Shown here: one piece after another, positions 3,983 to 48,480 of the stretch | How positions within the stretch are numbered: position 1 is the first letter of the stretch | Layout of the letters: every line of letters begins with the position of its first letter | DNA from: a virus | DNA: 64,000 nt | IMG/VR virus record: IMGVR_UViG_3300045049_000079 | Span: 25,831 to 89,830 of that record | Direction: 5' to 3' (one strand) | Notes under the pieces: generated by a model | What the model saw: only the letters and a program-made list of their open reading frames with translations | Told to the model about the DNA's origin: nothing | Database searches by the model: none | Translations under genes and position numbers: made by a program

Positions 3983-4309
3983 ATGAACACACAAGAACAC
4001 ATCGCAGAAATGCTGACACTCTTGCGGGATGCAGCCCGTGCTTGGAACAATGAAAATGAAAGCGAATTGGATGCCGTTATGGAACGTGTCGAATGCTTCT
4101 TGATCGATTCTCGCGACAGTGTATATGTGCAGCGTGACCCTCAGTATCCGCCTCGGAAGATCGCCTGTCGTGAGCCCTACAAGGTCGTAGGTACAATTGA
4201 CGACAACACAAAAGTTCTCGGAACCACTCATGGTGAGGTGAAGAAGGTGATTGAGGAAGGGTTTGCAGAGCAGTTTCGCATGATTGGTGAGAAAGAACAT
4301 GGAAAATAA
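3983..4309 (+). CDS. hypothetical protein, 108 aa
   Basis: AAAGGAA lies 6 bases before the ATG. The first 50 residues form an amphipathic helix pair (MLTLLRDAARAWNNENESELDAVMERVECFL). The rest carries PPRKIACREPYKVVGTIDD, likely beta. It overlaps the next gene by 11 bases. No family recognised. Confidence 0.7.
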   Translation: MNTQEHIAEMLTLLRDAARAWNNENESELDAVMERVECFLIDSRDSVYVQRDPQYPPRKIACREPYKVVGTIDDNTKVLGTTHGEVKKVIEEGFAEQFRMIGEKEHGK

Positions 4310-4802
4310 ATTTATAATCGTTATTGAAGCGGACAACAAACGTGCGCATGCAGCCTACACAAAAGGTTTGGAAGACCTTGACCTGTTGTGGCCGCAGATT
4401 GTTGAGCACTCCACACGGCGCGATGCCCGTAACCAAGCTTGGTATGAAAAGGAGTTGGCAATTTACAAGGAACAACAAGTCAAAGCAGAACAAATGCAAG
4501 CCGCCTACGACGAAGAGCTTAAACGTTGGCGGAATTCTATGCGAATGTCTCCACGTCCTGTGGAACCACCCGAACTATACATGGCGCGATCTTACTACTT
4601 GCGTATGGAGCCTCTTAAATACCCGCCACACATCAAATACTACGAAAGCATCCGGGCAGAACTGAAGCGTATGGCAGACCTAGCTGGTGCAGCATTAGGA
4701 CCATACCGCATGACTGAGCATCAAGTTCAGGAGATGATTGCGTGGGAGGATGGCAGTCGTATCGAATCTATCAAGCTAGAAATGCAGAGACAAACAACCT
4801 AA
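4299..4802 (+). CDS. hypothetical coiled-coil-like protein, 167 aa
   Basis: The ATG at 4299 is preferred over an in-frame TTG 15 bases earlier; the only Shine-Dalgarno sequence is a weak GAGAAAG. It is strongly helical, rich in Glu, Lys, Arg and Tyr, with long charged stretches around residues 45-80 and a Pro-rich bend (MSPRPVEPPELYMARSYY). It ends the 3322-4802 gene run. Function unknown. Confidence 0.65.
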   Translation: MENKFIIVIEADNKRAHAAYTKGLEDLDLLWPQIVEHSTRRDARNQAWYEKELAIYKEQQVKAEQMQAAYDEELKRWRNSMRMSPRPVEPPELYMARSYYLRMEPLKYPPHIKYYESIRAELKRMADLAGAALGPYRMTEHQVQEMIAWEDGSRIESIKLEMQRQTT

Positions 4803-4820
4803 AATAATTTCGCTTGCCCA

Positions 4821-4849
4821 TTGACTAACAGCCGTTTCTACTCTAATAT
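4821..4849 (+). promoter_or_regulatory. sigma-70 promoter
   Basis: TTGACT, a 17-base spacer, then TAATAT. It lies inside the apparent N-terminus of the next ORF and so supports the later ATG at 4881. Confidence 0.75.
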
Positions 4850-4880
4850 CTGTTCACTAACCAAAACAGGGAGAGCAGAA

Positions 4881-5087
4881 ATGGCTGACCAACTAACGCT
4901 AGACGAAATCACGATCATGGGTGTAACCCAAGAGGAGTTGTTCGGCTACATCAGGCGCTCATCGTCAGGTAAGGAATGGCCTGCAACGATTGTAAAAGGT
5001 GCTGTAGAATACTCTTTCGATGTTACGTATGAGCTTCCTGTCGAAATGCGAACCTACATTCAAGCTGCGAGGTATGTGAGAAAATGA
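4881..5087 (+). CDS. hypothetical protein, 68 aa
   Basis: GGGAG lies 7 bases before this ATG, downstream of the promoter at 4821-4849. The sequence MADQLTLDEITIMGVTQEEL looks helical, then a beta part (AVEYSFDVTYELPVEMRTY). It overlaps the next gene by 4 bases. No recognised family. Confidence 0.7.
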   Translation: MADQLTLDEITIMGVTQEELFGYIRRSSSGKEWPATIVKGAVEYSFDVTYELPVEMRTYIQAARYVRK

Positions 5088-5272
5088 AAATGAGCAAAAC
5101 AGTTGAAGACGTTATAAATTTTCACCCTGAGATTGTGCAAGGATATCGTGAAGACAATTTGCTAACAATCCTTGTGGCATACTTCATGACTATCGAGAAC
5201 ATCAAGGAAGCGGCTGCAACTCGTCTTGCTAAAGCTTATATCAATTTGCTGTTGAAACACTTGGAGGAATGA
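5084..5272 (+). CDS. hypothetical small helical protein, 62 aa
   Basis: Starts at an ATGA overlap with the previous stop; a second in-frame ATG is two codons later. Fully helical by eye (NLLTILVAYFMTIENIKEAA) and moderately hydrophobic. Its stop overlaps the next start. Translation is probably coupled along 4881-5529. Confidence 0.6.
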   Translation: MKMSKTVEDVINFHPEIVQGYREDNLLTILVAYFMTIENIKEAAATRLAKAYINLLLKHLEE

Positions 5273-5529
5273 TGAACAATGCTATTACAACAGTTAAGCA
5301 TGTGCTATACACCGGGTGTACGCTTTTAACGTATGCTTTCGGCTTGACCCTCTTGAATCAAGCACAAGAGCTTAACGACCTTGCAAAAGCGCTCTCATTA
5401 GCAATCATCGGGTTCTCTGGCTATTTGAGCTACGAGTTAATGACAACGAAAGATTACAAGCTTATGCCTGTGTTGTTGTTCGGTGCTGCCATTGCAACGA
5501 TGATTGGCATGATGTGTCTTTATTACTGA
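5269..5529 (+). CDS. small multi-pass membrane protein, 86 aa
   Basis: Two or three hydrophobic segments: about residues 10-27, 40-55 (LAKALSLAIIGFSGYL) and 65-85 (LMPVLLFGAAIATMIGMM). No charged pore motif or lipobox. ATGATGA at the junction with the upstream stop makes the first or second Met possible. It is one of several small predicted inner-membrane proteins in the early region. Holin-like activity or membrane remodelling are only possibilities. Confidence 0.6.
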   Translation: MMNNAITTVKHVLYTGCTLLTYAFGLTLLNQAQELNDLAKALSLAIIGFSGYLSYELMTTKDYKLMPVLLFGAAIATMIGMMCLYY

Positions 5530-5540
5530 AAGGGGCCAAC

Positions 5541-5666
5541 ATGAAGAAAGCATTTATTGCTGTAGGGCTGGCGTTTGTAGCATTCGTTGCGACAGTGGAC
5601 TATCTACAGGCGTCCTACAAATTACAACATCAACACGAAGAAATTGCTTCGACGTATGAGAAATGA
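5541..5666 (+). CDS. one-helix membrane microprotein, 41 aa
   Basis: A short ORF with AAGGGG 6 bases before the ATG. The N-terminal hydrophobic segment KAFIAVGLAFVAFVATV (residues 3-19) is followed by a charged helix (YKLQHQHEEIASTYEK). It continues the coupled series above and is followed by a terminator, which supports it being the last gene of the operon. Confidence 0.55.
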   Translation: MKKAFIAVGLAFVAFVATVDYLQASYKLQHQHEEIASTYEK

Positions 5667-7967: not shown

Positions 7968-8921
7968 TCAGATTGTAAATTCGGCCGCCATATGCATAAT
8001 GTTTGAAAATTCCCGGATGTGCGCGGCCTCTCTTTTGAAGCCATTTATTTCTGTGTTAATTATTGGTATTTCATTTAAAACTTTCTTTTCAAGTAAGTAT
8101 GCCGCCTCCCCTGACATTTCAAAGAGGTAAGTTTCTTTAATCTTATACCCGGATTCTGAAAGGTATTGTTTGTGTCGTTTAACCCGTTCACCAAAATCTT
8201 TCGTTATTCCAAACCCTACAAACGAATTATGTTCACTTTCGCACACCAATACGTAAAATACTGCGGGTTTAGATCGGTCAAAACCAGACTCGGCGCAACT
8301 TGGACAACCTATGTCAAGTCTAAGGAAGTTAGATTTCATCGGAAACCAGTTTCCATGATCCACACAGTTCATCTTTAATCGCTCGTTGTCTTCGCAAACA
8401 CCTTCACATTTCCACTTTTTGTTCCTCGCATGCTTGTTGGCTTTATATATGAGCTGTTCTTCAGTTAACGCTCGGTATCCACCTAAACATCGACAAGGGG
8501 TGTTGCCTCGCATTAGTGAATTGTAGTTTACCTTAAATACACACCCACCTATCCCGGCCCTGCTGTATTCATCAACTTCGCAAAGCTTGCATTTTACTTT
8601 CCATTCAAGTTTATGCTCTCTACAGAAAATATATTTATCGCCATAAATTCCATTCTCCAATATCTTATTAATCGATACTTCTAGATTATCGGAGCTTTTT
8701 TCTCGGAAACATTCAGGACATCTGCGACCTACTCTAACGTTAGTTAAAGTAGTTGTATTCCATGTGTGCCCAGCTTTACAAATAAAACTCAACTTTGTCT
8801 CAGATGTCAAATTCGTAAACGGCCCTATAAAAGTGTGCCCTTCTAACTCGCATAACTCTTTTATGAATCTCAAATACTCTGGTTGCCGCGCGGCAACTGG
8901 TCTTCCTTTGAGGGTCGTCAT
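7968..8921 (-). CDS. putative homing endonuclease: zinc-ribbon repeats plus GIY-YIG/T5orf172-like nuclease, 317 aa
   Basis: A leftward gene against the early operon. It contains at least three Cys/His clusters: FICKAGHTW...CPECF, VKCKLCEV, and MNCVDHGNWFP...CPSCAESGFD. These match the treble-clef/DUF723-like units seen in the other endonucleases of this genome. The C-terminal domain begins FDRSKPAVFYVLVC, with GFGITKDFGERVKRHKQYL as the YIG-plus-Arg part of a GIY-YIG nuclease. The start overlaps the upstream FDY gene by 4 bases. It would bind a specific site through the ribbons and cut nearby, as known homing endonucleases do. The family is fairly clear; cutting activity is inferred. Confidence 0.7.
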   Translation of the reverse strand: MTTLKGRPVAARQPEYLRFIKELCELEGHTFIGPFTNLTSETKLSFICKAGHTWNTTTLTNVRVGRRCPECFREKSSDNLEVSINKILENGIYGDKYIFCREHKLEWKVKCKLCEVDEYSRAGIGGCVFKVNYNSLMRGNTPCRCLGGYRALTEEQLIYKANKHARNKKWKCEGVCEDNERLKMNCVDHGNWFPMKSNFLRLDIGCPSCAESGFDRSKPAVFYVLVCESEHNSFVGFGITKDFGERVKRHKQYLSESGYKIKETYLFEMSGEAAYLLEKKVLNEIPIINTEINGFKREAAHIREFSNIMHMAAEFTI

Positions 8922-9124
8922 ACACCGTACTCCTCGGCGTATTCTTTCATCAACTTAAAAATCTTAGACAACTTTTTAGACTGTACGAGCTTCGCGACCA
9001 TTGCGGAGTCTTCTTTCTTGGTGTAGTATGTAATCAGTTTGTGATAGCTCTGATCTTGTACAGTGTTAAAACGAACGGCAATAGCGTCAACAGACGCGGA
9101 TTGATAGTCAAACGAGCGTGACAT
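8918..9124 (-). CDS. small FDY-motif protein, 68 aa
   Basis: First gene of the leftward cassette, directly behind a perfect promoter. It begins MSRSFDYQSASVDAIAVRF. The protein at 13450-13647 starts with a matching FDYRNATVSEIVEKF, so the two are paralogues with a conserved head and a diverged basic helical tail (YTKKEDSAMVAKLVQSKKLS). The gene overlaps the endonuclease start by 4 bases, so they are co-translated. Helical DNA-binding or regulatory function is inference. Confidence 0.7.
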   Translation of the reverse strand: MSRSFDYQSASVDAIAVRFNTVQDQSYHKLITYYTKKEDSAMVAKLVQSKKLSKIFKLMKEYAEEYGV

Positions 9125-9192
9125 TGTGTTTCCTTTAGGTTGGGAGTTGAAACAGACTTACGAACGTAACATTGCATTACGCTAATAACAAT

Positions 9193-9221
9193 ATTATATA
9201 CCTAGGACGGTGTATTGTCAA
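9193..9221 (-). promoter_or_regulatory. perfect-consensus leftward sigma-70 promoter
   Basis: Reading leftward: TTGACA, exactly 17 bases, TATAAT. It drives the FDY gene plus endonuclease cassette and points against the early operon. Confidence 0.9.
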
Positions 9222-9251
9222 ATATCAACAGATATGCATAGTAAATATCTC

Positions 9252-9280
9252 TTGTAAACCCGCCCTCGCTGTGCTACATT
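9252..9280 (+). promoter_or_regulatory. sigma-70 promoter
   Basis: TTGTAA, a 17-base spacer, then TACATT. It restarts rightward transcription after the leftward cassette. Confidence 0.65.
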
Positions 9281-9320
9281 GAACACATGGGCTAACACAA
9301 CACACACAACGGAGGAAAAC

Positions 9321-9473
9321 ATGAGCAAGCTTAAAGCATTCATTGCACATATGTTTGAAAGCAAATGGATTTATAACGAGGACGCCTCTGTGCGAGTACA
9401 CAAGGAGACGGGGAAGACGGAATATAGACATTGTGATGGATTTGGCGGCTGGTGGGCAGATGAACCGTTTTAA
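9321..9473 (+). CDS. hypothetical small protein, 50 aa
   Basis: CGGAGG lies 6 bases before the ATG at 9321. The sequence (SKLKAFIAHMFESKWIYNED, then HKETGKTEYRHCDGFGGWW) resembles a short beta-hairpin-rich phage protein. An upstream in-frame start is disfavoured because it would overlap the promoter at 9252-9280. Confidence 0.65.
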   Translation: MSKLKAFIAHMFESKWIYNEDASVRVHKETGKTEYRHCDGFGGWWADEPF

Positions 9474-9482
9474 GAGAATGTC

Positions 9483-9743
9483 ATGCAATTAAACTGGAAA
9501 TCCCCAGCAACACGAAAGCGCATGCAAGAGGCAATCTTCACACTGACGAATCCTCATTTTCCTGATATCAAGTTGATTGACGAGTGGGAAGACACTTCTG
9601 AAGGAGCTTTGCAAGATTTCTGTGCGGAGTATTCTTTCATTCCTTGGTGGACAGGCATTGGTATTATCGAGGCTGCATATTTGCTTGTTGAGACAGCTTT
9701 TGAGAATGGGAATATTGATTCTGACGGAAACGTTAAACTGTAA
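9483..9743 (+). CDS. hypothetical protein, 86 aa
   Basis: Starts 9 bases after the previous stop with AGAGAATGTC upstream. Helical, acidic, Trp-rich (EWEDTSEGALQDFCAEYSFI, then PWWTGIGIIEAAYLLVETAF). No known family. It is in the operon 9321-10396. Confidence 0.65.
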   Translation: MQLNWKSPATRKRMQEAIFTLTNPHFPDIKLIDEWEDTSEGALQDFCAEYSFIPWWTGIGIIEAAYLLVETAFENGNIDSDGNVKL

Positions 9744-9763
9744 TAACAACTAAGGAGTTTCAA

Positions 9764-10396
9764 ATGGCATACCCTGAAAATGATAGTCAGTTTGAAGAAG
9801 CAAAGATTTCCAGTGTTAAGAAATATGAATCCTCGTGGTGCATTGAACGTGATGATGGCTGGAGCTTTTCTGTTGACAGCAATTCTCCTGTTGTGCCGGA
9901 AGTCGGTATGACTGCACGATTCTACGGCAAGGGTATTGGTTATGTTGTGCGCGGGTTGTATCTGGACGGAAAGAAAGTGTTCTATAGATCGGAAGAAGAA
10001 CAAGAGAAGCACTTCGAGCTTGAAACATATGGTAAAGACGCACAAGAATGGCTCAATCGTTGGGATGAAGGGCGTTCTGTTTGGTCTGTCTCGATGGGAG
10101 GATTTGGGCCAGGGTACGAACAAGCTATTCAGATTGCAGCCGTAGAGGTTGTACGATTCCTGCTGGAAAAAGCGTACGATGCTTCATTGTGGAGCAATGC
10201 GGAAGTGTGGAAGGGTGTAAGCAAAGAGATTGAAACGGAGATGTTTAATCGCCTTGACAAGCTTGGTTTGTCCGGGGCGCAGTACGGTGCTTCTGTGAAT
10301 CTTGCAACCGTAATTTATCGTCAAGGGCCAGCTTACGTAAAGAGTGCACCAAGTGACAGACAGATTCAAGTTAGTAAGAATTTTCCAAGCTTGTGA
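9764..10396 (+). CDS. conserved-type phage protein, 210 aa
   Basis: AAGGAG lies 8 bases before the ATG. Residues about 20-75 form a beta barrel-like part (SWCIERDDGWSFSVDSNS...GMTARFYGKGIGYVVRGLYLDGK). Next comes a linker and a block around RSVWSVSMGGFGPGYEQAIQI, a motif I recall from a protein found in many siphophage early regions. The rest is helical. It is the largest early gene in this block; no function is known to me. Confidence 0.75.
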   Translation: MAYPENDSQFEEAKISSVKKYESSWCIERDDGWSFSVDSNSPVVPEVGMTARFYGKGIGYVVRGLYLDGKKVFYRSEEEQEKHFELETYGKDAQEWLNRWDEGRSVWSVSMGGFGPGYEQAIQIAAVEVVRFLLEKAYDASLWSNAEVWKGVSKEIETEMFNRLDKLGLSGAQYGASVNLATVIYRQGPAYVKSAPSDRQIQVSKNFPSL

Positions 10397-10406
10397 TAAA
10401 ATCCCC

Positions 10407-10435
10407 TTGACAACCGCTCGTAATCGTCCTATCCT
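10407..10435 (+). promoter_or_regulatory. sigma-70 promoter
   Basis: TTGACA, a 17-base spacer, then TATCCT, 48 bases before the next ATG. Confidence 0.7.
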
Positions 10436-10483
10436 GTAATAGCTCGCTAACAATCTTATGAATCTTACTTGGAGGAGTGCATC

Positions 10484-10621
10484 ATGCAAACCACAAAGCC
10501 AGCTAAGGAAATTGTAAGGCAATATATGCAGCAGCGTATTACGGAGCGTAGTGCTCCTCCGGGATTGGAAGCGATTAGGACGATGTTAGGGTGGAAATTA
10601 ATAGAGGCTGGGAGGAAATAA
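10484..10621 (+). CDS. hypothetical small basic protein, 45 aa
   Basis: A short ORF with GGAGGAG 8 bases before the ATG and a promoter just upstream. Reads MQTTKPAKEIVRQYMQQRIT and ends LGWKLIEAGRK. Basic and helical. It is first in a run of seven tightly packed small genes to 12078. Confidence 0.6.
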   Translation: MQTTKPAKEIVRQYMQQRITERSAPPGLEAIRTMLGWKLIEAGRK

Positions 10622-10622
10622 T

Positions 10623-10805
10623 ATGGAACGTGACAAGAACGGATATGCAGTGCTGACAGTAGCACGTAAGAAATACTACATCACACCTTATCAGGGATAT
10701 TATGCTGTGCGCGACGTTACAGGCGCTATTGTGCGGATTGACGGCAATCAGCAACTTATCTTCGAGAGTGAAGATGCAGCTATCAACTATTTGAGGCAAC
10801 CATGA
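10623..10805 (+). CDS. hypothetical small protein, 60 aa
   Basis: Begins one base after the previous stop with GGGAGG upstream. A compact beta domain (GYAVLTVARKKYYITPYQGY, then YAVRDVTGAIVRIDG) ending in a helix, which fits a small regulator or structural cap. Overlaps the next start by 4 bases. Unassigned. Confidence 0.65.
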   Translation: MERDKNGYAVLTVARKKYYITPYQGYYAVRDVTGAIVRIDGNQQLIFESEDAAINYLRQP

Positions 10806-11011
10806 GCCGCAACAAACAACAAGGGAAATATGCCGGGAAGCTTGGCAGGAAGCATTATAGGACGCGCTTAGAAGATGCCAAAGTGTCTATTGTGGATTGT
10901 TATTATGAGGAGTGGGCAAGGGATCATAGGGCGCCTAGCAAGGCTGCTAGAGACTTCTTTGGAGGTGGGGATATTGGAATCTTTCGATTGATGCGGATGA
11001 GGGTGTTATAA
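10802..11011 (+). CDS. hypothetical basic protein, 69 aa
   Basis: Overlaps its neighbours at both ends (ATGA, then TAATG). Very basic N-terminus (SRNKQQGKYAGKLGRKHYRTR), then DFFGGGDIGIFRLMRMRVL. Nucleic-acid contact is plausible from charge alone. No family. Confidence 0.6.
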   Translation: MSRNKQQGKYAGKLGRKHYRTRLEDAKVSIVDCYYEEWARDHRAPSKAARDFFGGGDIGIFRLMRMRVL

Positions 11012-11190
11012 TGGACTACAGAGCATTGCTTAAGAAGTACATGCTGTTCTTGCTGTATCGTGAAGGTAGCTGTTTTGTTGATGAAGATGGGCCGGAAGAG
11101 TTGTACGGAGAAGCTAAGCATATGAGTAAGGATGAGAAGCAAGAACTTGCAAGGATTTCTGATGAAGTGTTTGATGAGGATACTTTATGA
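11011..11190 (+). CDS. hypothetical small acidic protein, 59 aa
   Basis: A short ORF whose ATG shares a base with the upstream TAA and whose stop overlaps the next ATG. Sequence: MDYRALLKKYMLFLLYREGS, then an acidic helical tail with EDGPEELYGEAKHMSKDEKQ. Coupling and length fit the neighbouring genes. Confidence 0.55.
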   Translation: MDYRALLKKYMLFLLYREGSCFVDEDGPEELYGEAKHMSKDEKQELARISDEVFDEDTL

Positions 11191-11393
11191 CACGCCTATA
11201 TTATTTTGAAATCAGGGATAAGTACATCGGAGAAGGAAATATCGATGTTCCTGTTAGTTATCACTCTTTGTGCAACGCTAGGTTTTTCATGTCCGAAGAT
11301 TCTGCACAGTTTTGGTGTGATACGTATTGCAAAGACTTTCCAGACGCTGTATTGTGCTCTTTTGAGGCTACAAATTGGCGGAGGGAGGAATGA
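11187..11393 (+). CDS. hypothetical protein, 68 aa
   Basis: ATGA overlap at the start and an ATGA overlap with the next gene. Alternating beta/helix with four Cys (C29, C44, C48, C57) and a WCDTYCKDFPDAVLC segment. This could hold a metal site or disulfides, but spacing does not match a classic finger. Function unknown. Confidence 0.65.
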   Translation: MTRLYYFEIRDKYIGEGNIDVPVSYHSLCNARFFMSEDSAQFWCDTYCKDFPDAVLCSFEATNWRREE

Positions 11394-11818
11394 TGATAGA
11401 GTACGAACCTAGAACAATTGGCAACTTATACGCCATCTCTGTCAACGGAACAATTCTAGCCCACAAGAACGGCGAGCCTCGTACATACAAAAGCCACAAG
11501 AAGGCTTTTAAAGCCTCTCAGAGCCTTGGAAATGGTGCGCATGTGGTTTCTGTCATGCTAACTGTTCCGGAGGCTTTACAGCCTGTTAAAATCGATTCTA
11601 GCACGGTTGCAGAAGTGTTGAGGGAGATTGCTAACCAATATGACACGGGACATCCTAGAATTGCTATCTGTGACTTGCGTTCAGATGTGTATGTTCGTAC
11701 GCTTCGTCATACTCCGCTTGGTGAGAAACCAGTGATCGAGAAAGGAGATAGGGATATGGTGTATGAGTTGCACTTGAAATGGTATTGCGATGTTGCTACT
11801 GTGAGGGACAAGGAATGA
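11390..11818 (+). CDS. hypothetical protein, 142 aa
   Basis: GGGAGG precedes two adjacent ATG codons (11390 and 11393); the second has better spacing. Residues 1-65 are beta-rich (TIGNLYAISVNGTILAHKNG); the middle has a helix (STVAEVLREIANQYDTGH) and the end another sheet. A small alpha/beta domain with no recognised motif. Confidence 0.65.
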   Translation: MMIEYEPRTIGNLYAISVNGTILAHKNGEPRTYKSHKKAFKASQSLGNGAHVVSVMLTVPEALQPVKIDSSTVAEVLREIANQYDTGHPRIAICDLRSDVYVRTLRHTPLGEKPVIEKGDRDMVYELHLKWYCDVATVRDKE

Positions 11819-12078
11819 TTACAGAAAACCAAGTATGCGTGTTGCGTGACATGCTGCACGAAGCTAACACAGACTGGCTCATGTCCCATCTGTCCATCGA
11901 GAAAATGGGGAATAGGCATTTTGTTATTGTTGTGGAAGGGGCGAGTGAGCAGGATGTGGAGGAGTTGTTTTGGGATGCGCAAGCCGCATTAGAACTTACT
12001 GACGAGGACTTGAGCAAGCCTCACACTTGCGGACTGTCGGGTAAATATTATGGAGTTTGCCCATTGTGCAAGGATTGA
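11815..12078 (+). CDS. hypothetical protein with C-terminal Cys/His cluster, 87 aa
   Basis: Starts at an ATGA overlap with AAGGA upstream. The final 21 residues hold HTCGLSGKYYGVCPLCKD, with His and three Cys spaced as a possible zinc knuckle (H-x-C...C-x-x-C). The body is helical and acidic. Last rightward gene before the second leftward cassette. Zinc binding is inferred from spacing only. Confidence 0.6.
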   Translation: MITENQVCVLRDMLHEANTDWLMSHLSIEKMGNRHFVIVVEGASEQDVEELFWDAQAALELTDEDLSKPHTCGLSGKYYGVCPLCKD

Positions 12079-12148
12079 CAGCAGCCGTCCTTCAGGACAA
12101 TTCCCGACAAGGGTGCACAAGCGTCTTTTGTTGTGTGTGGCTTGCGCG

Positions 12149-12817
12149 TTATGCCGTTGCTGGTTCTATGACCATCTCAACTACTCGGATAGGCTCGATA
12201 TTCAATTTAGACTTATGGCCCACTGTGTCGCGCTTATTCCATAGTGGTTGATGCTCAAGAATCATCTGCGCTTCGTAGAATAAGACATCTGGACCGGAAT
12301 CGAAAATGTGAAACTCCATACGGCTAATTTCTGCGATGTCTTTATCCTTAATATGGCTGCTCCACCGAGTAAAGAAGTTATTTGTTTTACCGATATACAG
12401 CACTTCGCCATCACAATCAAAGAAGAAATAACAAACGTAAAGAGCATCCCTCAATGCCCCTTGCACATCTGGCGGAGTTACTAAGTGCTTCAACGGTTCA
12501 GGTTTAATTGACTCTTTTCTGTACCTTGAAGAGATGATTAGTTTCTGATACTGATCTTCAGCACTCTCTAGCTCTGCGTACGCTTTTAACATATCGCGTT
12601 CTGACATCTTCTCCACTACATCGCACCCTAGTTGCTCGTCTAGCGATAGCGAACTTTCATATTCCCTTCTGTCGTACTCTATCCACTTGTCCTCATAAGA
12701 CGGTGCGCGATGATACGCAGCATAAGCCGCAATAATATTCTCGTCCGGTAATTCCCACGCTTGATTGTCGTATAGAATTCTAGCCAGAAAAATCCTCTTC
12801 TGATGTATCGTACTCAT
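12149..12817 (-). CDS. GIY-YIG family endonuclease, 222 aa
   Basis: Catalytic domain at residues about 126-195: LYVCYFFFDCDGEVLYIGKT (VCY in place of GIY, then YIG at 141-143), Arg151 in TRWSSHI, and Glu182 in FYEAQMILEHQPLWNK. This is the UvrC-like arrangement with the tyrosines, arginine and metal-binding Glu all present. Residues 1-110 are helical and probably the DNA-binding part; no zinc ribbons here. The start overlaps the upstream HTH gene by 38 bases. A homing or group-intron-type nuclease is the best reading. Confidence 0.75.
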   Translation of the reverse strand: MSTIHQKRIFLARILYDNQAWELPDENIIAAYAAYHRAPSYEDKWIEYDRREYESSLSLDEQLGCDVVEKMSERDMLKAYAELESAEDQYQKLIISSRYRKESIKPEPLKHLVTPPDVQGALRDALYVCYFFFDCDGEVLYIGKTNNFFTRWSSHIKDKDIAEISRMEFHIFDSGPDVLFYEAQMILEHQPLWNKRDTVGHKSKLNIEPIRVVEMVIEPATA

Positions 12818-13388
12818 TCAATAAACTTTCTTCAATATTAGTAACAACTTCTTTATCTTGAACATCTAACAATTCTTGATTGTAGAGACTGCGCTTGACC
12901 ACTTCCCGACGGATCAACAGTTGGATCAATCCACACGCTTGCATGTATCGTTGTGCTTGCCTTTCACCGACACCGAGCGCATCACTGATGATCGCAGTAG
13001 ACAACTTGTCCAGCTTCGACAGTAGACGATACACAACAGTTGTAGACAACGGACGAGTGTTGCCATTCATGTCCAGGCGCACAACACCATGAAACACATC
13101 TTCAAACGTTGGTGGCAACGTGCATTCCTTCATACTCCACACAACACCGTCGAACAGTTGCACAAGGTCAGCATTGTCCAGCACAACAGGTTTACGCCCC
13201 TTGCTGCGCTCAGGTTCAGGCTTAATCTCATACGTCCACTCTGCATCCGGCTTCCACTTTGGAATCCGCTTCTTCAGCTTCGCGAGTAGTTGCGGCGTCA
13301 TCTCCGCACACTGCAACGGCTTACGCTCGCGCTGATCGTAGTAGGGAGGTTTGCACGCTTCCCACACTGATACGCCATACACTTCCAT
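12780..13388 (-). CDS. winged-helix DNA-binding protein, 202 aa
   Basis: The ATG at 13388 has AGGTG 6 bases upstream; an in-frame GTG lies three codons earlier. The C-terminal third carries LSTAIISDALGVGERQAQRY followed by MQACGLIQLL, a clear helix-turn-helix with an ERQAQRY recognition helix. The N-terminal half is basic with KGRKPVVLDNADLVQLFDG. It sits between the FDY protein and the GIY-YIG nuclease in one leftward operon. Regulator of the cassette or a replication-type protein are both possible. Confidence 0.65.
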   Translation of the reverse strand: MEVYGVSVWEACKPPYYDQRERKPLQCAEMTPQLLAKLKKRIPKWKPDAEWTYEIKPEPERSKGRKPVVLDNADLVQLFDGVVWSMKECTLPPTFEDVFHGVVRLDMNGNTRPLSTTVVYRLLSKLDKLSTAIISDALGVGERQAQRYMQACGLIQLLIRREVVKRSLYNQELLDVQDKEVVTNIEESLLNEYDTSEEDFSG

Positions 13389-13452
13389 TACCGACACCTA
13401 TTATAAGAAGAAACTATAAATCTTGCACAAAAGCAATTACCGACACCTATTA
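13387..13452. repeat. 17-bp direct repeat, 49 bp apart
   Basis: ATTACCGACACCTATTA occurs at 13387-13403 and exactly again at 13436-13452. On the leftward strand each copy supplies a TAATAGGTGTCGGTAAT leader: one overlaps the FDY gene stop, the other carries the HTH gene's ribosome site. A small tandem duplication of the translation leader, or an insertion footprint, would explain it. Confidence 0.8.
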
Positions 13453-13647
13453 ATACACAGAATCCAACTTGGCAGACAATTCAGCAAACTTGTACAAACG
13501 ATAAGCTTCCTCGATCTTGCTAGACATCTCTTTATCATCCTTCCAGTTCTTCCTGATAGCATAGATAAGTTGTTTGCTAGAACTCTTGAACTTTTCGACA
13601 ATCTCTGATACAGTGGCGTTACGGTAATCAAAATTCTTACGTGGCAT
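13450..13647 (-). CDS. small FDY-motif protein, 65 aa
   Basis: Paralogue of 8918-9124: both open with FDY, then two or three residues, A-[ST]-V and a helix ending in F. Here MPRKNFDYRNATVSEIVEKF is followed by basic and acidic helices. It is the first gene after the perfect promoter at 13680-13708 and upstream of the HTH and GIY-YIG genes. The recurrence of this protein next to two unrelated-architecture nucleases suggests a functional link. Confidence 0.7.
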   Translation of the reverse strand: MPRKNFDYRNATVSEIVEKFKSSSKQLIYAIRKNWKDDKEMSSKIEEAYRLYKFAELSAKLDSVY

Positions 13648-13679
13648 ACATTCCTCATAGTGTTGTGTTTAACTATGGA

Positions 13680-13708
13680 ATTATAGTATGAGAGATGTCC
13701 TGTGTCAA
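13680..13708 (-). promoter_or_regulatory. perfect-consensus leftward sigma-70 promoter
   Basis: Reading leftward: TTGACA, 17 bases, TATAAT. Same exact boxes and spacing as at 9193-9221. It drives the second cassette. The rest of 13648-13978 is AT-rich with a palindrome and a rightward promoter. Confidence 0.9.
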
Positions 13709-13878
13709 TTAATTTACCGACTTAAAATAGCATAACTAACCCTGCTAACGCGGTTAGACAAGCATAAGAATGCTGTAAGGTCTAGCACACAAACAACAAT
13801 AAACCAAAGAACAACAAAAATAAGCAATAACTAACTTATTTTAACAAAGTAAACAACCCCTCGCACAACAATCATAAG

Positions 13879-27073: not shown

Positions 27074-28315
27074 ATGGGCATCAGTAAGCCTTCCATTTTT
27101 GTTGGTGACATCTTCGACACTAAGAACTACGGCAAAGTAGAAATTTTAGAGTACGTCAAGTCGACGGATATCACAGTAAAGTTCTTGAACACTGGAAGCA
27201 TCCAGAAGACTAATTCATCGCAAGTTAAGAACGGCATTTTGAAAGATAAGACCGTTCGGTTGTACGGTGTGAAGGTGGGCGAGGTGTTTGACACCAGTCA
27301 CTGTGGGAAATGTGAGGTTGTAGAGTACATCCACGCCAAAAAGATTCTTGTTAAATTCTACGAGAGCGGAAAACTCAAGTGGACAAACTCCTCACAACTT
27401 AGTTCAGGAACGGCGTCCGACATTGATCCTTGTGACAGGGTATCGTTGGGAGACATCTTTGAGAACACTGATGGTTTTAAGGCAGAAGTGACGGCTTTGC
27501 ACTCGGGGTCACGCTTCGACGTGCGGTTCGAGGACGGTACTGTTAAGAATGTCAGCATCACAGCGCTTAAGAGTGGGAAGTTCTTGAAGGGTACATGGAA
27601 CTATAGCCAAGATGAAGCTATCGAGGCCATGAAGGTGGTTCACGGTGATCGCTATGACTATAGTCTTGTTGAGTTTAAGGATGTTAAAAGCAAGGTGAAA
27701 GTCCGTTGCTACACTCATGGTATCTTCCAAATATCCTTTGACAATCACGTCAATTCTGCACATGGTGCTCATCCGTCAGGGTGCAGAAAGTGCGCCATCG
27801 AAGCACGTGCAAAAGCTAAGACACTCGATGCAAGTCTGTTTGTAGAAGAGGCAATTGCACTAAACGGCGACAGGTATACGTATAACATGTTTGACTATAC
27901 CACACGAGACAAGAAGATTCAGATTACCTGCAATGACTGTGGTAGTACGTTTAAGCAATCTCCAGAAAAACATCTTGGAGGAAGAGGGTGTCCTTCCTGC
28001 GCTAAAACAGGTTTCGACCAGACGAAGCCGGGTGTTGTGTACGTACTTTCGTGCGAAAACCTTACCAAGATCGGCATCACTAACAAGAAAGCAGAATCCC
28101 GAGCCAAAGATATCAGCACGTCGTATGGTAAAGATTTTACCGTTATACGCGAGTTTCCTATGAGTGGCACACTATGCGCCGCCTTAGAGCGGGCAATGCT
28201 TACATATTTGAAGAAGAATTATGAAAGGCCATCAACAAAGTTCAACGGGTATTCGGAATGTTTTCTTGGGTTGAGGCCGGATGACCTAGTGGAGATGTTG
28301 GAGTGTCTAACGTAA
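27074..28315 (+). CDS. putative homing endonuclease with three N-terminal repeats, zinc ribbons and T5orf172/GIY-YIG-like domain, 413 aa
   Basis: Three tandem repeats at residues about 9-54, 67-112 and 124-169 (GDIFDTKNYGKVEILEYVKS type, beta-rich, DNA-binding in look). Two DUF723-like ribbon units follow at 183-240 and 254-309; the second uses Cys286, Cys289, Cys306 and Cys309. The nuclease begins GFDQTKPGVVYVLSCENLTK and continues IGITNKKAESRAK, like T5orf172. Its last 13 bases overlap the large-terminase start, so the element is placed exactly against terL. Site-specific cutting is inferred from family. Confidence 0.75.
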   Translation: MGISKPSIFVGDIFDTKNYGKVEILEYVKSTDITVKFLNTGSIQKTNSSQVKNGILKDKTVRLYGVKVGEVFDTSHCGKCEVVEYIHAKKILVKFYESGKLKWTNSSQLSSGTASDIDPCDRVSLGDIFENTDGFKAEVTALHSGSRFDVRFEDGTVKNVSITALKSGKFLKGTWNYSQDEAIEAMKVVHGDRYDYSLVEFKDVKSKVKVRCYTHGIFQISFDNHVNSAHGAHPSGCRKCAIEARAKAKTLDASLFVEEAIALNGDRYTYNMFDYTTRDKKIQITCNDCGSTFKQSPEKHLGGRGCPSCAKTGFDQTKPGVVYVLSCENLTKIGITNKKAESRAKDISTSYGKDFTVIREFPMSGTLCAALERAMLTYLKKNYERPSTKFNGYSECFLGLRPDDLVEMLECLT

Positions 28316-34190: not shown

Positions 34191-34199
34191 AGAAACATG

Positions 34200-34217
34200 A
34201 CCCTCTTCGGAGGGTTT
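34200..34217 (+). terminator. terminator-like hairpin after the capsid gene
   Basis: ACCCTC-TTCG-GAGGGT with a short TTTAAATTT tail. It may attenuate readthrough from the capsid gene. Confidence 0.7.
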
Positions 34218-34224
34218 AAATTTC

Positions 34225-34253
34225 TTGACTTTGTGAGCTTCTTATTGTACAAT
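34225..34253 (+). promoter_or_regulatory. sigma-70 promoter of the endonuclease gene
   Basis: TTGACT, a 17-base spacer, then TACAAT. It lies in the upstream extension of the next ORF and sets the start at 34287. Confidence 0.8.
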
Positions 34254-34286
34254 AGTAATATTGAGGCTCACAATATAAGGGAATTT

Positions 34287-35207
34287 ATGACTAAGGCTCT
34301 AACCCAGGAAGAGTTTATCAAGAAGGCGAAGATGGTTCACGGAGACGCCTATTCATATGATAAAACAAATTACATCCGCTCTAATCTAAAAATTATTGTT
34401 ACTTGTCCCAAAGAGGGGCATGGTGATTGGGAAGTAACTCCAAACAATCATTTGAAGAGAAAATGCCCTAAGTGCGCATGCACCTTCACAAATGCAAAAG
34501 AGGCATTCTTGCCAAAAGCAAGTGCACAGTTTGGTGATTTATATGATTATTCAGAGGTTGTCTACACGCGCTCTACAGAAAAAGTGAAAATCAAGTGTCA
34601 CGAGCACGGCTTCTTTTATGTCACCCCATCTAACCACTTGAACGGTTTTGGTTGTGCCAAGTGCAGCTATGAACGAATGGCTAAGAAAAAGACAAAAAGT
34701 CTTGAAGAGTATATCACCGAAGTGCAAGCTGTTCACGGAGATAGGTATGGACTTGACAAGATATCCTACTCTCACTGCTTTGACAAAGTCACCATCATTT
34801 GTCACGAACACGGGGAATTTAGCGCACTGGCGAACTCTTTTCTGCAAGGGCACGGATGCCCTTCTTGCATGGAAGGCGGGTTCAATCAGATGAAAGCTGG
34901 GTCGTTATACGTGATGACAGATGGAGACATTTGCAAAATTGGCATCACAAACCAATCAGCAGCGATACGTGCAGAGCACATCAACAAAATGTCGAAATTA
35001 TCGTTTTCTTCTGTATTTGAGAAGAGGTTTGAAGACGGCTCTGTCCCTTTAAACATCGAGACGATTCTACTGCGAGAACTTCGTGCAAAGTATAAATCTA
35101 TTGAAATGAAATTCAATGGCAGTTCTGAGTGCTTCTACTGCGTAGATATATCTGCTCTCCTGTCCAGAATAGAAGAACTAATAAAGGAACTAAATGCCCA
35201 TTATTGA
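34287..35207 (+). CDS. putative homing endonuclease: three zinc-ribbon units plus T5orf172/GIY-YIG-like domain, 306 aa
   Basis: The ATG at 34287 has AAGGGA upstream. Three ribbon units: VTCPKEGHGDWEVTPNNHLK with CPKC, IKCHEHGFFYVTPSNHLNGF with CAKC, and IICHEHGEFSALANSFLQGH with CPSC. The nuclease starts GGFNQMKAGSLYVMTDGDIC then KIGITNQSAAIRAEHI. It lacks the three N-terminal repeats of the copy at 27074. It sits between the major capsid gene and the next structural gene and overlaps that gene by 14 bases, so insertion is precise. Own promoter. Confidence 0.75.
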   Translation: MTKALTQEEFIKKAKMVHGDAYSYDKTNYIRSNLKIIVTCPKEGHGDWEVTPNNHLKRKCPKCACTFTNAKEAFLPKASAQFGDLYDYSEVVYTRSTEKVKIKCHEHGFFYVTPSNHLNGFGCAKCSYERMAKKKTKSLEEYITEVQAVHGDRYGLDKISYSHCFDKVTIICHEHGEFSALANSFLQGHGCPSCMEGGFNQMKAGSLYVMTDGDICKIGITNQSAAIRAEHINKMSKLSFSSVFEKRFEDGSVPLNIETILLRELRAKYKSIEMKFNGSSECFYCVDISALLSRIEELIKELNAHY

Positions 35208-46139: not shown

Positions 46140-46168
46140 TTGACAAGATTGTTAGCTGGTGCTATAAT
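46140..46168 (+). promoter_or_regulatory. perfect-consensus late promoter
   Basis: TTGACA, 17 bases, TATAAT, with the extended AATTGACAAGATTGTTA word found at 29769. Confidence 0.9.
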
Positions 46169-47548: not shown

Positions 47549-47658
47549 GTAGGGATACGTTGTGAAACGCTCCCTGCGAAATGCAACAAGAGACAAGGGA
47601 CTTCATATCCCCTCTCTTAGCATTCTTAAGACCATTGAGAATATTAAGAAAGAGGATT

Positions 47659-48480
47659 ATGGCCTTAACACAAGAAGAATTCATCAAACGCAGTACTGAT
47701 ATACACAATAATTTTTACGACTATTCCGTAACAATATTCAAGAAAGTGTACGAGGACGTAGAAATAATTTGTCCCGTCCATGGTGTGTTCTCACAACTCG
47801 CTAGGAGGCATTTGATGGGCAAGGGTTGCCATGCATGCGGGTTAATAACAATAGGCAGAATGGGGCAGCAAAGAGCCGCTGAAAAGTTTGTACGAGAAGC
47901 ATCTAGCATGCCGCAACATGCTGGTAAGGGTTATTCGTACGAAAAGACTGTGTATGTAAAATCAAAAGAAAAAGTAGTTATTACGTGCCCCGCACATGGC
48001 GATTTTAGCATTACTCCCCATAGCCATTTGCAAGGTCAGGGGTGCAGTAAGTGCGCAAATGAGCGCAGAACTAAACACACGTTTAAATCTGTAGCAGAAT
48101 CAGTCTTTTATGAGCTTGAAAACGGATTTACTCCTTATAAACCTGGCGTGCTGTACATTTTGAAATGTGGAAATGTCGTCAAGATTGGCATATCCAATAA
48201 TGACCCCCGCTATCGCAGCGAGAGTGCTTCAAAGACATCCGGTTATGATTTCAAAGTGAGGACAGTCTACATGTTTGACAGTGGCCGTATCGCACAAATT
48301 GTGGAAACTGAAATTCTCAGGCTGTTAAGAAAGATGTACAAACAACCTTTGCATAAATTCGACGGATACACAGAGACGTTTTTAGATGTAGATATGCCAC
48401 ATCTGCTACACAGTCTTGAGACTATTCTTTCTGTAATCGAAGGGCAAAATAGCCCTAACCCCGCTTCACAAGAAGCATAA
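47659..48480 (+). CDS. putative homing endonuclease: two zinc-ribbon units plus T5orf172/GIY-YIG-like domain, 273 aa
   Basis: ATG at 47659 after AGAGGA; the ORF start at 47581 has no ribosome site. Two ribbon units: IICPVHGVFSQLARRHLMGK with CHAC, and ITCPAHGDFSITPHSHLQGQ with CSKC. The nuclease starts NGFTPYKPGVLYILKCGNVV then KIGISNNDPRYRSESASK. It opens ALTQEEFIKRSTDIHNNFYD, close to the ALTQEEFIKKAKMVHGDAYS opening of the copy at 34287, so these are recent relatives. Lies between tube and chaperone genes. Confidence 0.75.
   Translation: MALTQEEFIKRSTDIHNNFYDYSVTIFKKVYEDVEIICPVHGVFSQLARRHLMGKGCHACGLITIGRMGQQRAAEKFVREASSMPQHAGKGYSYEKTVYVKSKEKVVITCPAHGDFSITPHSHLQGQGCSKCANERRTKHTFKSVAESVFYELENGFTPYKPGVLYILKCGNVVKIGISNNDPRYRSESASKTSGYDFKVRTVYMFDSGRIAQIVETEILRLLRKMYKQPLHKFDGYTETFLDVDMPHLLHSLETILSVIEGQNSPNPASQEA

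Follow-up and report, generated by a model that had tools for sequence, protein, structure and literature searches.

Two leftward units in the 64-kb window (the whole stretch of viral DNA analysed, 64,000 nucleotides) each encode a small protein, FDY, directly behind an exact sigma-70 promoter and end in a nuclease gene. The same arrangement is found in related phages with other nucleases, and both the architecture and the modularity of these cassettes are well supported by sequence comparison. They may be autonomous elements resembling free-standing homing endonuclease genes (HEGs), with FDY as their dedicated expression controller, a reading that is given an even chance here. Cassette 1 by itself is very probably a selfish nuclease cassette, while the role of FDY as expression controller is put slightly below even. 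The features are as follows.

7968-8921, minus strand: nuclease 1, with CapR-type zinc domains and a C-terminal GIY-YIG-like domain (Pfam, PHROG)
8918-9124, minus strand: FDY1, a predicted three-helix protein of 68 aa (dN/dS 0.07 against G001)
9125-9192, minus strand: cassette 1 leader (5' UTR), kept in 13 clade A cassettes
9165-9181, minus strand: putative RNA hairpin CGTAAT-GCAAT-GTTACG, supported by covariation, with an invariant GCAA loop start
9193-9221, minus strand: cassette 1 promoter, exact TTGACA-N17-TATAAT, kept at clade A copies in relatives
12149-12817, minus strand: nuclease 2, GIY-YIG (PF01541, 1.1e-6)
12780-13397, minus strand: partner gene, phrog_3360 (4.6e-19), a family with no assigned function
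13450-13647, minus strand: FDY2, a predicted three-helix protein of 65 aa, clade B (family alignment, profile match, model)
13680-13708, minus strand: cassette 2 promoter, an exact TTGACA-N17-TATAAT consensus pair

The original prediction placed zinc ribbons in the first nuclease and gave the second an unrelated N-terminus. The ribbons are borne out as CapR zinc domains (PF21817, 5.8e-8); the protein also matches the phage endonuclease family phrog_681 (6e-38), and its start codon overlaps the FDY1 stop (ATGA). The second nuclease does have an unrelated N-terminus, is assigned to GIY-YIG by its Pfam match, and shares 41% identity with gene 3 of the L119 cassette. A partner gene is present as proposed, but the winged helix ascribed to it has no Pfam match; its product is probably DNA-binding. 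Its position is taken by unrelated genes in relatives, and its homologue in related Pseudomonas phages is a separate replication-region gene. In units of the cassette 2 type, FDY is separated from the following gene by 52-85 nt. Cassette 2 would be a three-gene variant consisting of FDY, an exchanged and probably DNA-binding gene, and a GIY-YIG nuclease; these genes may form a resident operon and not a mobile cassette.

Three exact TTGACA-N17-TATAAT pairs are present in the window, against 0.05 expected per window in shuffled sequence, and shuffled windows never attained three. The third (46140-46168, plus strand) lies upstream of a neck-protein-like gene, so that the cassette promoters are, as first noted, the only leftward perfect pairs. 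The promoters of intact FDY copies score 12/12 in 17 of 33 cases and at least 10 in 32 of 33; among random 160-nt windows, 2.6% reach that level. Sense nucleases that lack FDY have scores of 6-8.5, with a single exception at 11. The FDY-promoter DNA is conserved above its flanks, and this conservation stops near the -35 box.

FDY1 and FDY2 are 27% identical in the family alignment. Profiles built from single clades match each other (probability 98.9%, E 2e-17, 66 columns), and the two proteins, modelled separately, are confidently predicted to form the same three helices (pLDDT 90-92). Because the clade profiles match and the models agree, the N-terminal likeness noticed at the outset is considered real, and these alignments and models indicate that FDY1 and FDY2 are homologous. 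Across the cassettes FDY is 60-77 aa long with a modestly positive net charge (0 to +5), and dN/dS values of 0.07-0.24 in most pairs show purifying selection on its sequence. Neither Pfam nor PHROG has a family for FDY, and no Pfam model, HTH_3 included, gives an accepted match; Foldseek against PDB and viral models finds nothing significant and no fold match backing nucleic-acid binding. Designed armadillo proteins, which appeared as a profile match, were set aside as helix-repeat similarity. Nothing credible was found by tblastn in 50,697 phage records, whether the query was FDY1 or FDY2 (E up to 1) or one of two further members of the family (E up to 10). An FDY profile had no match in six named Pseudomonas relatives, a set with no positive control, and FDY had none in genome contigs of bacteria and archaea.

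The FDY copies number 34, come from about 20 related uncultured phages, and are scattered over many positions with up to four per genome. A nuclease gene follows within the same unit in 30 of the 34, directly in 25 (usually overlapping or abutting, frequently through ATGA or TAATG) and after one intervening gene in five. At least six nuclease classes are represented (among them CapR-GIY-YIG, several HNH families, GIY-YIG with a NUMOD-like part, and plain GIY-YIG); they match the homing-endonuclease families phrog_681, phrog_655, HNH_3 and GIY-YIG, and a single FDY clade partners at least four unrelated classes. The profile check of FDY neighbours that had been suggested therefore recovers a repeated nuclease link with few stand-alone copies, and the claim that promoter and FDY are constant while the nuclease varies extends to the relatives. 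The four copies lacking a nuclease are the G007 FDY, which stands alone behind an exact promoter, one copy and one remnant upstream of a gene for a 424-aa protein (G008 and G001, respectively), and one upstream of a gene for a 242-aa protein (G011). FDY accompanies none of 16 sense-orientation, embedded phrog_681 relatives, and all eight phrog_681 genes of FDY cassettes lie outside those 16. The CapR-GIY nuclease tree separates an FDY-linked clade from FDY-less members (100/100), a topology that also fits a direct FDY-nuclease partnership.

Occupied and empty alleles of one site are found at the helicase-X locus. In G001 and G005 the site is vacant; elsewhere it is occupied by FDY with CapR-GIY, with HNH_3/AP2, or with another HNH-family protein; in some relatives FDY-less nuclease-like genes lie downstream of the helicase gene. 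Since the empty sites have no FDY, FDY travels with the nuclease and is not a resident of the locus, and the proposed comparison of relatives with and without a cassette has it arriving together with the nuclease at this locus. Genome comparison thus establishes the architecture, its repetition, nuclease swapping, occupied and empty sites, and the absence of FDY from embedded sense relatives. At the insertion edges of the two cassettes in the window, relatives have flanks that are too diverged (for cassette 1, too diverged for alignment to an empty site) or a different gene content. A 64-nt block beside cassette 2, conserved with G005, was considered as an empty site and is a terminator-like sequence instead.

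A covarying hairpin is present in the 5' leader of 13 of the 14 clade A FDY copies; the remaining copy has no hairpin and carries a terminator-like sequence in its leader. All six pairs of the stem are maintained (100% of cells paired), five of the six are changed on both sides, and the result is matched by 0 of 500 shuffles. The case for RNA rests on this covariation because the folding of single clade A leader sequences gives weak z-scores (mean -0.6). The repeat was also considered as a DNA operator, which is ranked below RNA because of the wobble pairs, the covariation of the arms and the fixed loop. Over 949 kb a covariance model of the leader matches at FDY leaders only. A leader-pattern match without FDY, L109, is probably due to chance, and no curated Rfam model matched 7.5-14.5 kb of the window up to E 5. 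The hairpin is present in clade A regardless of the downstream nuclease, and clade B and C copies lack it even where their nuclease is of the same type. In several clade C leaders, strong inverted repeats lie across the expected start site. FDY distance correlates with leader distance (r 0.66; 0.78 in the HNH set), partly through linkage of these physically adjacent elements; its correlation with the HNH catalytic part is lower (r 0.54), and that with the HNH C-terminal (specificity) half is r -0.03.

In the preferred reading, phages of lytic type would carry cassettes in which a consensus host sigma-70 promoter and a leader precede FDY and then a nuclease, usually translationally coupled to it. 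FDY would act at the beginning of the transcript that encodes it, in clade A through the RNA of the leader hairpin and in clade C through the inverted repeat that surrounds the start site. It would keep expression of a nuclease with so strong a promoter down to a safe burst, like C proteins or the self-repression of I-TevI. Embedded HEGs would need no FDY because their transcript is borrowed from the host gene. A more tentative extension holds that FDY is the first dedicated controller family of homing endonucleases and that the promoter-leader-FDY module is portable and has been adopted by different nuclease families. The hairpin RNA would then be the FDY target in one clade, and the nuclease families would gain independence from host transcription, also in antisense positions. 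The earlier statement that FDY serves the nucleases stands as an association, but the evidence favours expression control over help in cleavage.

FDY could instead be an accessory subunit of the nuclease, helping it to find its target or to dimerise, or shielding the resident genome, and not a regulator, which is considered unlikely. The FDY-linked CapR-GIY nucleases do form one clade distinct from FDY-less relatives, all eight strong phrog_655 HNH genes found among these phages come with FDY, and the start-stop overlap implies joint production. Against this, one FDY clade pairs with four or more unrelated classes, FDY distance tracks the cis element and not the HNH specificity half, and FDY clades are swapped inside a nuclease clade: in G002, the nuclease that follows a clade B FDY is sister to one that follows a clade A FDY (98/93). 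The frequent ATGA or TAATG overlaps, and unrelated short ORFs before HEGs in the Vibrio phages VPMCC14 (53 aa, overlapping) and ICP1 (19 aa), would agree with FDY being mainly a translated leader that couples or sets nuclease translation, its product having little function of its own. This is improbable in view of the low dN/dS, the specific predicted fold, and the spacing after FDY in cassette 2-type units.

That homing nucleases merely land downstream of an ordinary, strongly promoted phage early gene is very improbable: FDY is missing from empty helicase-X sites and thus comes with the nuclease, it occupies many differing positions, and the conserved FDY-promoter DNA ends near the -35 box, although the stand-alone G007 copy, the copies before non-nuclease genes, and the clustering of HEGs near particular genes (PMC10448857) count in favour of such a gene. 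The least probable reading is that the units act in defence, or against competitors, with other phages or satellites as their target; CapR-type domains in the ICP1-PLE conflict offer a precedent (PMC10448857). PADLOC gives only a marginal match (a GIY-YIG stretch, 1e-3), no immunity gene is apparent, and nuclease swapping and empty sites are the behaviour of homing elements. The original prediction had left selfish and defence-like systems side by side; the homing-endonuclease families favour the former, and a defence role, with no meaningful defence-family match, is unsupported.

The usual account of homing endonucleases is of single genes that regulate themselves or rely on transcription from the host. 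In these phages, one portable control module would be common to several unrelated nuclease families; it would consist of a dedicated protein, joined in one clade by an RNA element. If true, this would explain how such genes are expressed early despite lying antisense to their neighbours, and annotators would have a marker by which to recognise a hidden class of mobile elements. Whether a selfish nuclease can be tamed by a small partner protein becomes a testable question.

The C proteins of restriction-modification systems are small, encoded by a first gene that overlaps the nuclease gene, and have a strong promoter of their own and a cis element at the start. FDY resembles them as a small protein whose gene comes first and overlaps the nuclease gene, behind its own strong promoter and with a cis element at the start. 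It differs in its three predicted helices, which have neither a Pfam match nor a PDB neighbour of the HTH_3/XRE type, and in that the clade A element behaves as RNA; no methyltransferase was noticed, the examined unit genes matching nucleases or nothing of known function. Free-standing phage HEGs (seg and mob of T4, T5orf172-CapR of ICP1) have nuclease families in common with the FDY cassettes (phrog_681, phrog_655, HNH-AP2, GIY-YIG) and are likewise intergenic, beside replication genes and patchy in presence. Those of T4 lack promoters or have middle or late ones, with no early ones, and the only antisense one, segD, has no known promoter (PMC2988022), whereas FDY cassettes have an exact sigma-70 promoter, are often antisense, and add a dedicated small protein. 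In I-TevI, as would be the case in the FDY cassettes, feedback and an RNA structure in cis hold down HEG expression (PMC2988022). I-TevI is its own repressor and its hairpin masks the ribosome site, whereas the cassettes have a separate protein and the clade A hairpin lies at the 5' end, distant from that site. Nuclease 1 also has the PF21817 domain family in common with CapR of PLE satellites; PLE CapR is a stand-alone repressor, whereas in nuclease 1 the domain is joined, as it is in HEGs, to a GIY-YIG-like part.

The original prediction described a pair of leftward units spanning 7968-13708, both carrying an exact promoter and a small FDY protein, held that their nucleases differ, and suggested a modular selfish or defence-like system. 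Both promoters and intact open reading frames are present, and the difference is confirmed. Nuclease 1 (7968-8921) matches phrog_681 and has CapR zinc domains (PF21817), nuclease 2 (12149-12817) is a GIY-YIG protein, and the gene between FDY2 and nuclease 2 (12780-13397) matches phrog_3360, of unknown function. Exact TTGACA-N17-TATAAT pairs number three in the window, two of them leftward, against a mean of 0.05 in shuffles. The window belongs to a virus record of 89,830 bp, whose distant kin include Pseudomonas phages phiK7A1 and PAK_P5 (portal about 40% identical).

9193-9221, leftward: exact promoter of unit 1
8918-9124, leftward: FDY1, intact ORF
13680-13708, leftward: exact promoter of unit 2
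13450-13647, leftward: FDY2, intact ORF
46140-46168, + strand: third exact promoter, TTGACAAGATTGTTA..TATAAT, upstream of a neck-protein-like gene

Exact promoters of the TTGACAAGA type recur as a family in relatives, where the structural strand carries most of them. Three more CapR/phrog_681-type endonuclease genes of the window (27074-28315, 34197-35207 and ~47581-48480) lie in sense orientation amid structural genes, without an FDY partner; one immediately precedes the terminase gene.

FDY is a genuine protein family, judging from profiles and predicted structures. Viral-contig scans place its relatives in some 20 distinct uncultured phages, with up to 4 copies per genome; the sample consists of uncultured contigs throughout. 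The clade A (FDY1 type) and clade B/C (FDY2 type) profiles align at a probability of 98.9% (E 2e-17), and the same three helices appear in two models (mean pLDDT 92 and 90) from differing alignments, the second holding zero clade A rows. No match to Pfam, PHROG, PADLOC or PDB folds held up. Values of dN/dS, 0.07-0.15 in most closely related pairs and 0.24 in one (another pair being too close to judge), show that FDY is under selection.

The link between FDY and nucleases is strong. The suggested pairing was borne out by the neighbors of 34 distinct copies: a nuclease adjoins in 25 and lies one gene further on in 5. In 25/34 the nuclease gene begins at the FDY stop or close to it, commonly with an ATGA overlap; the five with an intervening gene are followed by a GIY-YIG gene and are all of clade B type, unit 2 included. 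The classes behind FDY are CapR-GIY-YIG, HNH of phrog_655, a small HNH-like protein, GIY-YIG with a NUMOD-like part, plain GIY-YIG, HNH_3 with AP2, and a second HNH-family protein with AP2. An exact promoter stands before 17 of the 33 intact copies, and 32 of the 33 have one of 10/12 or better, a score of 10 being reached by 2.6% of random 160-nt windows. Sequence comparison demonstrates this cassette architecture and the exchange of nucleases. The four copies without a nuclease are a solitary one with an exact promoter (phage G007), one in G008 and a remnant in G001, both upstream of a 424-aa phrog_4756 protein, and one in G011 upstream of a 242-aa protein. On visual inspection the 424-aa protein, of unknown function, looks like the palm of a family A polymerase.

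L076:9042-10640: 424-aa phrog_4756 protein, FDY gene upstream
G001, ~53.5-55.0 kb: 424-aa phrog_4756 protein, FDY remnant upstream

Among phrog_681 nucleases of the same phages, 16 are sense with their surroundings and none of these has FDY, while the other eight are all FDY cassettes. Promoter scores of the FDY-less genes are at background, save one at 11. A catalytic-domain tree separates FDY-linked from FDY-less nucleases with 100/100 support; within the linked half, FDY clades A and B/C are intermixed, and in G002 the FDYs ahead of two sister nucleases (98/93) come from different clades. At least one G002 cassette, immediately after a helicase gene, is co-oriented with its neighbor, so orientation alone is not the rule.

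Occupancy of the site between this helicase gene and gene X varies among relatives. The proposed comparison of relatives with and without cassettes gave an empty site, without FDY, in G001 and G005 (helicase stop, 58-60 nt holding the next gene's promoter, gene X) and filled sites in others. The insert is FDY+CapR-GIY-YIG in G002, FDY+HNH_3-AP2 followed by gene X in contig L128, FDY plus another HNH-family protein in L132, and a long nuclease-like gene without FDY, then gene X, in G004 and G011. The L128 right junction, AATTCTAGTTGAC, is similar to the empty site's helicase end. Empty and occupied sites together indicate that FDY is not resident there and comes in with the nuclease.

A leader of about 70 nt, beginning right after the -10 box, is common to 13 of 14 clade A copies. 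Alignment demonstrates its predicted structure, a six-pair stem with a GCAAY loop, then a conserved AAGTCTG-like stretch: 77/77 cells are paired, 5/6 pairs have changed on both sides, and 0/500 shuffles match it. Wobble pairs and the fixed, asymmetric loop favor RNA over a DNA operator, and we infer that the element probably acts as RNA. A covariance model matches at those 13 leaders only, among 949 kb. Leader presence tracks FDY clade rather than nuclease class. Distances between FDYs correlate with those between leaders at 0.66 (13 copies) and 0.78 (HNH set); the correlation falls to 0.54 for the HNH catalytic part and vanishes for the HNH C-terminal half (-0.03). The 14th copy has a terminator-like hairpin inside the leader. 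In the G001 copy L001:7682 such a hairpin (GGGCGCCTTTGAGCGCCCTTTTT) lies between promoter and FDY start codon, which suggests attenuation. Strong inverted repeats cross the expected start site in several clade C copies; their signal is lost on removal of the stretch that should be untranscribed, so this may be a DNA element.

Rather than an active homing cassette, unit 2 may be a resident operon with a possible tie to replication. Clade B units occupy an equivalent position in G000, G004 and G010; the GIY-YIG gene is kept between phages (41% identity to L119), and the middle gene is swapped for unrelated genes. The corresponding region holds FDY and the 424-aa gene in G008, and in G005 a replication-initiation-like gene next to short repeats, a possible origin region.

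G005 (contig L064), ~4300-5600: GAGATGCATTT-type repeats adjoining the replication-initiation-like gene (HTH_36, phrog_270)
Window, 12096-12130: terminator-like sequence at the convergent end of unit 2
Window, ~13740-13765: CTAACCGCGTTAGC..GGTTAG, a conserved repeat element preceding the clade B promoter

The terminator-like sequence lies within a 64-nt block that is 90% identical in G005 despite differing surroundings. The repeat element has this place in G000, G004 and, partly, G010.

In the mechanism we propose, host polymerase would fire the promoter early in infection, FDY would be the first product, and the nuclease would be made through translational coupling, with further expression held down by FDY or the leader. 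During coinfection the nuclease would cut the allele without the cassette, which would then be copied in. The proposed early promoter use contrasts with the homing endonuclease genes (HEGs) of T4, whose endonuclease-specific promoters are of the middle and late kinds with no early ones among them, and whose sole antisense HEG is without a known promoter (PMC2988022). For HEG-rich phages such as ICP1, an FDY-like partner protein is absent from the searchable open-access description (PMC10448857). CapR-type HEGs of Vibrio phages have short ORFs upstream, unrelated to FDY.

L138:1328-2742, antisense to both neighbors: VPMCC14 CapR-type HEG with a 53-aa ORF overlapping its start
L143:1341-2784: ICP1 CapR-type HEG with a 19-aa ORF upstream

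The VPMCC14 pair repeats the layout of the FDY cassettes with another small protein.
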